Positions 30,308 through 32,183 of a stretch of 32,537 bases of DNA are shown here, one piece after another. Every line of letters starts with the position of its first letter. Within the stretch, counting starts at the first letter, position 1. This stretch comes from Lachnospiraceae bacterium. GTDB taxonomy: Bacteria; Bacillota; Clostridia; Lachnospirales; Lachnospiraceae. Both the position numbers and the translations under genes were made by a program. Under the pieces are notes generated by a model. The model was not told the DNA's origin. It saw nothing but the letters and a program-made list of their open reading frames with translations, and searched no databases. The stretch is from contig JAILNV010000023.1 in assembly GCA_024691125.1 (NCBI GenBank), positions 1 to 32,537 on the forward strand, read 5' to 3'.

Positions 30308-30345
30308 AAAAAGAAACCGGAAACATATCTGTCTCCGGTTTCTTT
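30308..30345 (-). terminator. Intrinsic terminator in mccB leader (attenuator)
   Basis: AAAGAAACCGGA and TCCGGTTTCTTT form a perfect 12-bp stem (30334-30345 with 30310-30321) around a 12-nt loop. On the minus strand the descending arm runs into TTTTTGC. It lies after the stop of the Cys-rich leader frame and about 90 nt before mccB, so it must be bypassed for mccBA expression. Since 400 nt separate it from the next gene upstream, it is better placed as an attenuator than as that gene's terminator. Confidence 0.75.
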
Positions 30346-30368
30346 CATAATGGAATGGTCATGCAGTG

Positions 30369-30500
30369 TTATATTTTATAGCCGCAACAAAGCAGAGGCA
30401 AGCATCGACACGAGCGCACAGATTCCATATGAATTGCCGGAGAATTACCTCTACAACAACATCCGATATTCATAACTGTTTTCTGTGTCCGCATAAACAT
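30369..30500 (-). CDS. Cys-rich leader peptide of the mccBA operon (candidate)
   Basis: A 43-codon frame, far too short and odd to be an enzyme. Seven of its 43 residues are Cys (positions 14-16, 31, 33, 38, 39), including three TGT codons in a row (30461-30453). It lies between a promoter and a terminator ahead of genes for cysteine synthesis. AAAGGAG is present at 30514-30520, but 13 nt from the ATG at 30500, which is long. Segments complementary to each other and to the terminator lie directly after the Cys run. It is probably a ribosome-stalling sensor of Cys-tRNA; the peptide itself need not have a function. Confidence 0.55.
   Translation of the reverse strand: MFMRTQKTVMNIGCCCRGNSPAIHMESVRSCRCLPLLCCGYKI
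30437..30452 (-). promoter_or_regulatory. Alternative-pairing segments of the mccB leader
   Basis: Directly after the TGT-TGT-TGT run, AGAGGTAA (30452-30445) can pair with TTGCCTCT (30401-30394), using one G-U. The next segment TCTCCGG (30443-30437) is exactly complementary to CCGGAGA (30338-30332) in the ascending arm and loop of the terminator. A ribosome with its A-site on the third Cys codon would cover about the first segment and leave the second free to disrupt the terminator. Confidence 0.5.
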
Positions 30501-30555
30501 TTGTGTCTTTCATCTCCTTTTACTTTGTTACTGAGATTCACTTCTCATGGATGAA

Positions 30556-30584
30556 ATAATACAACCTCTTGAATCCCCTGTCTA
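30556..30584 (-). promoter_or_regulatory. Promoter of the mccB leader
   Basis: On the minus strand TAGACA (30584-30579), a 17-bp spacer and TATTAT (30561-30556). Transcription would start near 30549 and give a leader of about 330 nt before mccB. Confidence 0.6.
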
Positions 30585-31980: not shown

Positions 31981-32183
31981 ATTATGATTAAAGGGTCAAA
32001 AGCCTGTCAACACCACAAGCTTGCTTGATGGTGGGGACAAGGATTTATGACCCGCCCCAACATGAGCAAGAAGTGGGGCTTAGCACCACGGAATTGCGAA
32101 TGGTGGGTAGGATTGTGGGAGTGCGAAGCACGGAACAATCCGTTAATCATAAAAAAGTATAGTTTTGACCCCTAAATCATTAT
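31981..32183. mobile_element. 203-bp MITE-like element with inverted terminal repeats
   Basis: The outer 21 bp at 31981-32001 and 32163-32183 are inverted repeats matching at 18 positions; the inner core GGGTCAAAA/TTTTGACCC is perfect. The inside is full of hairpins, including CACCA.AAGC/GCTT..TGGTG (32012-32034), GCCCCA/TGGGGC, and GGATTGT..GTGC-GAA-GCAC..ACAATCC (32110-32141). No reading frame of note is present and its G+C is higher than the surrounding DNA. No clear target-site duplication was found. It could also be a structured non-coding RNA or REP-type element. Confidence 0.6.

Follow-up and report, generated by a model that had tools for sequence, protein, structure and literature searches.

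We examined a 32,537-nucleotide (nt) stretch of Lachnospiraceae bacterium GCA_024691125.1 (contig JAILNV010000023.1, positions 1–32,537; hereafter the window), whose minus strand carries a cysteine (Cys)-rich leader in front of a gene resembling mccB. This leader is very probably a ribosome-mediated transcription attenuator that senses Cys-tRNA, with ribosome stalling and read-through as inferred steps, and the leader system to which it belongs extends well past mccBA. A first-pass annotation of the window had proposed such an attenuator, and conservation argues for its core, namely Cys codons read by the ribosome, a TCTCCGG antiterminator strand and a terminator before mccB. Relatives conserve the Cys codons and their frame along with the TCTCCGG-type pairing and the terminator. 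A further proposed pairing, AGAGGTAA/TTGCCTCT, is not among the strong helices of the family. The positions of the parts are given in Table 1.

A scan of genome contigs yielded 80 loci, many of them with Lachnospiraceae in the title and sampled from rumen or gut, of which 60 were taken with a near mccB (at least 78% identity) and its upstream DNA (220 nt only for L045). Searching these with an RNA model, R1, built from 46 leaders with the window among them, placed a leader within 450 nt upstream of mccB in 36 of the 60 and ahead of a preceding gene in eight others (L048, L050, L053, L060, L064, L067, L088, and L103), and found no leader at the remaining 16. As a model-free control, we counted open reading frames (ORFs) of 15–70 amino acids led by a Shine–Dalgarno sequence and containing Cys-Cys and at least three Cys. 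Such Cys ORFs exceed chance before mccB: they occurred in 37 of the 60 upstream regions versus 1 of 60 on the reverse strand, a mean of 0.5 per 60 in shuffled sequences (maximum 4), and 12 of 585 random intervals from the same loci. A second family leader was seen elsewhere in the same fetched locus in L036, L041, L045, L046, and L076, so some genomes hold several close copies.

Reading frames were compared across the family. Of 99 aligned matches, the 88 in which Cys codons stand side by side close to the start were tested; the frame stayed open for at least 14 codons in all 88 (56 and 48 in the other frames), and 83 had a start codon and Shine–Dalgarno sequence in frame (2 and 6 in the others). 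Spacing between these two signals was 9–12 nt in 69 of the 83 leaders, and the 13 nt reported for the window is correct and occurs in four of them. Among these rows, chosen for Cys-Cys, the first 25 codons held a mean of 4.16 Cys in frame versus 1.86 and 0.74 out of frame. Family columns 13–15 read UGU or UGC in 95 of the 99 rows and columns 16–18 in 84, with TGT used 180 times and TGC 30 times in the Cys runs. The 43-codon window frame with seven Cys codons, including TGT-TGT-TGT, is present as annotated. Additionally, Trp-Cys or Tyr-Cys replaces Cys-Cys in L176, L181, L182, L183, L186, and L187, where reading a single Cys may be enough or a second amino acid may be read too.

Both the antiterminator and the terminator covary across the family. 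The TCTCCGG and CCGGAGA strands named in the first-pass annotation are both present and can pair, and the helix they form (X/X') covaries; the antiterminator also includes two helices absent from that annotation, CATATGGAAT/ATTCCATTATG (Y/Y') beside the terminator and a hairpin that family members form within the frame. Strands X and Y lie within the frame, as does Z in most leaders. In 69 of 87 leaders, X starts 15 nt past the first base of the last preceding Cys codon, and in nine it starts 12 nt past it, including the window, where TCTCCGG begins 12 nt past the start of the run's last Cys codon. Ribosome footprints put the first base beyond a ribosome that holds this Cys codon in its A site at about that spacing. 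Median distances put the stop codon 14 nt beyond Z and 23 nt short of Y'. From this spacing and the stop-codon position we propose that a ribosome short of Cys-tRNA would stall at the Cys run, leaving X, Y, and Z free to form the antiterminator and allow read-through, and that a running ribosome would hold the antiterminator strands apart, letting the terminator form. A Cys-starved ribosome would thus likely keep transcription of cysteine-making or probably cystine-importing genes going in these gut and rumen bacteria. At the sequence level, the family has the features of a leader-peptide attenuator: a frame with start codon and Shine–Dalgarno sequence, enrichment of Cys codons, and a terminator with a competing antiterminator.

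Folding calculations covered both the window and the family. RNA from 30572 to 30300 folds with z = −3.85, none of 200 shuffles being equally good, and the optimum fold of the window RNA after the Cys codons is X/X' plus Y/Y' at −33.3 kcal/mol. In equilibrium folding before X' is made, X was predicted to be unpaired at 0.515 with a ribosome at the Cys codons versus 0.363 with one at the stop codon (51 versus 9 of 85). With X' present, however, the two ribosome states were not clearly different at equilibrium (18 versus 14 of 87), and the proposed switch was not reproduced; equilibrium calculations with a static ribosome back the proposal only in part.

The flanking signals stood up unevenly. 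The terminator with its T-run is present, though its stem has 14 bp rather than the 12 first reported, and a consensus scan of a 651-nt region lists no terminator, probably because the T-run lies partly inside the stem. The promoter TAGACA-17-TATTAT is present and agrees at 10 of 12 positions; taken alone it is not significant, since the same scan found 3 promoter-like sites where 1.9 ± 1.4 were expected. A relative, L002, carries TAGACA-17-TATCAT upstream of its mccB terminator.

The window leader scores 50.4 bits with R1, whose training set contains it. Both the window and L031, its near relative, were left out of the 44 leaders behind a second model, R2; over the window's whole 3.5-Mb genome, the single place that R2 found at E ≤ 1 was the window leader (22.8 bits, E = 0.0062), and R2 did not find L031. 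We read the window leader as a true but divergent member of the family. Window and L031 share an aligned start, the peptide motifs MN..(A/G)CC and ME.VRSC.C, and ATTCCAT in Y', which is also identical in L002. At L002 (2640–2900, minus strand), from the same genus, a similar promoter-like site, Y', and the terminator are kept, the Cys frame is absent and the T-run is interrupted, perhaps a natural loss of the leader.

We found the family in Lachnospiraceae and beyond, ahead of more than one operon kind. With the window's own genome included in every count, R1 matched 16 of 37 genus genomes, 51 of 397 family genomes (47 of 334 genera), 17 of 295 order genomes, and 6 of 398 phylum genomes. The 57 genus and family matches, at least six of which are R1 training places, were inspected by sorting the next genes by similarity and scanning representatives. 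A Cys/Met pyridoxal phosphate (PLP) enzyme followed in 30, an amino-acid-type solute-binding protein in 17, cysK in two, and another gene in seven, with no frame at hand in one, so 49 of the 57 precede O-acetylhomoserine thiol-lyase/mccB, amino-acid binding-protein or cysK genes. Representatives above cut-off included an O-acetylhomoserine sulfhydrylase (TIGR01326, 625.5 bits) and a cysK (TIGR01139, 449.9 bits). The binding protein of L131, one of the 17 similar loci, is a fusion of SBP_bac_3 and MetQ/NlpA domains; because its similarity to the cystine-binding model is weak (81 bits, cut-off 312), cystine is only a putative substrate. In L171, the leader is followed by a fragment of a (2S)-3-sulfopropanediol dehydratase-like gene (780 bits; whole-protein cut-off 1000), which would link sulfonate breakdown to Cys supply. 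PepT-like genes follow leaders in L175 (scanned, above cut-off) and L193 (by eye), and these peptidase T-like products perhaps release Cys from peptides. Among 23 further order and phylum loci read by eye, two of which (L188 and L192) also matched in the family survey, the next gene was O-acetylhomoserine thiol-lyase-like in 13, amino-acid permease-like in four, and cysK-, mccB-, MetQ-, and PepT-like in one each, with one unassigned. One more of the 23, L198, has its match before a lysS-like gene and is probably a false match.

Several other explanations would account for parts of these observations. If attenuation is real and the switch is instead the AGAGGTAA/TTGCCTCT helix, broken by the stalled ribosome as first suggested, the 8-bp pairing right after the Cys codons of the window would be its basis. 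The corresponding columns, however, hold no helix among the 40 strongest window pairs in a map of 84 non-redundant leaders, and with the Cys codons left out this fold is far weaker in the window than the X/Y fold (−21.4 versus −33.3 kcal/mol), making such a switch unlikely. Direct sensing by the RNA, as a Cys T-box, a riboswitch or a protein-binding leader with an incidental frame, would suit the strong conservation of RNA structure, and Clostridium perfringens bears a Cys T-box on the same operon type (PMC2940859). Direct sensing is very unlikely: neither the window leader (unrelated sub-threshold families only) nor the corresponding leaders at 10 relatives' loci gave an Rfam match at gathering score. 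Also against it, every tested leader keeps the frame open, 83 of 88 have start signals, X, Y, and mostly Z lie inside the frame, and X follows the Cys codon at a spacing of 15 nt in 69 of 87.

There is even less reason to expect that the frame encodes a functional Cys-rich small protein, with a metal or redox role, and that the hairpin merely ends its own transcript. The MCCRM..SRA..MAG core is conserved (11 peptides) and a few copies are predicted as database proteins (7 proteins, E ≤ 0.001), but its conserved SRA and MAG residues fall on the X and Y/Z strands, which show covariation at the RNA level, the remainder of the peptide and its C-terminus are highly variable, and none of five peptides tried has a Pfam or NCBIfam family. 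Promoter control by an Rrf2-family (CymR-like) repressor, with the leader as a minor modulator, is likewise very improbable, though a palindrome ACCTATTGACAnnnTAGGT, or one near it, occurs in 21 of the 60 mccB upstream regions (L032, L034, L035, L037, L039–L043, L047, L049, L057, L059, L070, L071, L073, L075, L077, L081, L084, and L090), mostly embedding a TTGAC(A) −35 box. This palindrome is likely a CymR-like operator; an Rrf2-family gene is divergent to the box in L032 and L041, and L032 and L200, the latter of the window's genus, have the box and no leader. Against a repressor as the main control, a leader accompanies the box at 19 of the 21 boxed loci, the box is missing from 17 of the 36 direct leaders, and by eye there is none over the window promoter. 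Box and leader look like layers, not alternatives.

Table 1. Parts of the window's mccB leader and the genes downstream of it (window coordinates).
Feature	Position	Strand	Details
Whole mccB leader region	30584-30308	-	43-codon Cys frame, terminator, antiterminator strand
Putative promoter TAGACA-17-TATTAT	30584-30556	-	10/12 matches
Shine–Dalgarno AAAGGAG	30520-30514	-	13 nt from ATG
Cys leader frame MFMRTQKTVMNIGCCCRGNSPAIHMESVRSCRCLPLLCCGYKI	30500-30369	-	43 codons, 7 Cys: CysCysCys, then SCRC, then CC
Sensor codons TGT-TGT-TGT (CCC)	30461-30453	-	Family columns 13-15 and 16-18
Possible competing 8-bp helix	30452-30394	-	AGAGGTAA (30452-30445) with TTGCCTCT (30401-30394)
X strand TTCTCCGG of antiterminator	30444-30437	-	Within frame; TCTCCGG at 30443-30437; helix covaries
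Y strand CATATGGAAT, inner antiterminator helix	30431-30422	-	Helix map, covariation
Two further Cys groups near frame end	30413-30384	-	Ser-Cys-Arg-Cys and Cys-Cys
Y' strand ATTCCATTATG, directly before terminator	30356-30346	-	Pairs with CATATGGAAT; covariation
Intrinsic terminator and T-run	30343-30308	-	14-bp stem 30343-30330/30325-30312, loop GATA, −21.5 kcal/mol
X' strand CCGGAGA	30338-30332	-	Common to antiterminator and terminator
mccB-type Cys/Met metabolism PLP enzyme	30218-29067	-	PF01053 512.5 bits; best NCBIfam NF005810 561 bits (cut-off 594)
mccA/cysK-type PLP enzyme	29021-28110	-	PF00291 256.6 bits; TIGR01136 344.1 bits (cut-off 344.15)
Third gene	27962-27408	-	No Pfam match; weak YciW-related NCBIfam match, 27.4 bits
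MetQ/NlpA lipoprotein	27349-26405	-	
tRNA gene	26273-26204	-	Between MetQ/NlpA and MetN-like genes
MetN-like ATPase	26089-25061	-	341.3 bits, under cut-off 499.7

The names mccB and mccA are given by resemblance because the NCBIfam scores fall under their cut-offs. The protein genes from 27962 to 25061 (minus strand) are possibly the rest of the mccB operon, though the MetN-like ATPase may be outside the transcript because a tRNA gene intervenes. Close to the window end lies a Clostridiales-1 RNA (RF01699, 128.9 bits; 31985–32149, plus strand).

The usual teaching assigns amino-acid sensing in Gram-positive bacteria to the T-box and leader-peptide attenuation to Proteobacteria. PMC2965389 and PMC1262725 agree with that picture: the former presents a His leader peptide before hisS/hisZ in bacilli as new and states that, to its knowledge and setting ermC aside, leader peptide systems had until then been shown only in Proteobacteria and Actinobacteria. 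Our literature search over titles and abstract openings found no Cys leader in Clostridia. We think it probable that the leaders are an undescribed RNA family forming a ribosome-read Cys regulon in Lachnospiraceae and neighbouring families, where other clostridia use Cys T-boxes, with a three-part in-frame antiterminator whose first helix sits at the edge of the waiting ribosome. This family would be reused before O-acetylhomoserine thiol-lyase, cystine-type transporter, cysK, mccB, peptidase T-like, and sulfopropanediol dehydratase genes and often stacked on an Rrf2-type box. If so, gut and rumen clostridia solved Cys sensing by reading the ribosome and not by binding tRNA, a Cys regulon is outlined in organisms with little known sulfur regulation, and the RNA model would let annotators flag transporters and sulfur genes lacking a known substrate.

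Published Cys systems resemble the family in part. The Cys T-box, found in C. perfringens before ubiG-mccBA, cysK, and cysP (PMC2940859), shares its pathway and logic, with uncharged Cys-tRNA leading to antitermination, but binds tRNA directly and needs no translation. The T-box model RF00230 matched neither the window nor any of 10 relatives' loci, and the single T-box match in the window's genome is under cut-off. Polycysteine leaderless short ORFs are reported in mycobacteria (Canestrari 2020, cited in PMC13236596), where PMC13236596 speaks of translation attenuation, and the actinobacterial cys leaders are described as having no conserved terminator hairpin (PMC1262725). Both, like the leaders here, are short Cys-run frames before cys genes; the mycobacterial kind starts leaderless and lacks an intrinsic terminator, whereas this family has a Shine–Dalgarno sequence, an intrinsic terminator and a covarying antiterminator. 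In Rhodobacterales, uORFC-8-2 before cysS has two tandem Cys codons, stems and a U-run, and ribosome-mediated attenuation has been proposed for it (PMC8632094). By that description it is proteobacterial and confined to cysS, unlike these clostridial leaders before sulfur assimilation and uptake genes, among whose scanned cluster representatives no cysS-like next gene occurred. With trp/his leader-peptide attenuation, the family shares a run of end-product codons, a strand common to antiterminator and terminator, and a T-run before biosynthetic genes, and it differs in its amino acid, cysteine, in a three-part antiterminator with 5' strands mostly in the frame, in serving several operon kinds, and in its hosts, Lachnospiraceae and other families. 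The leader very probably works like trp/his attenuation, and is neither a T-box nor of the mycobacterial kind.
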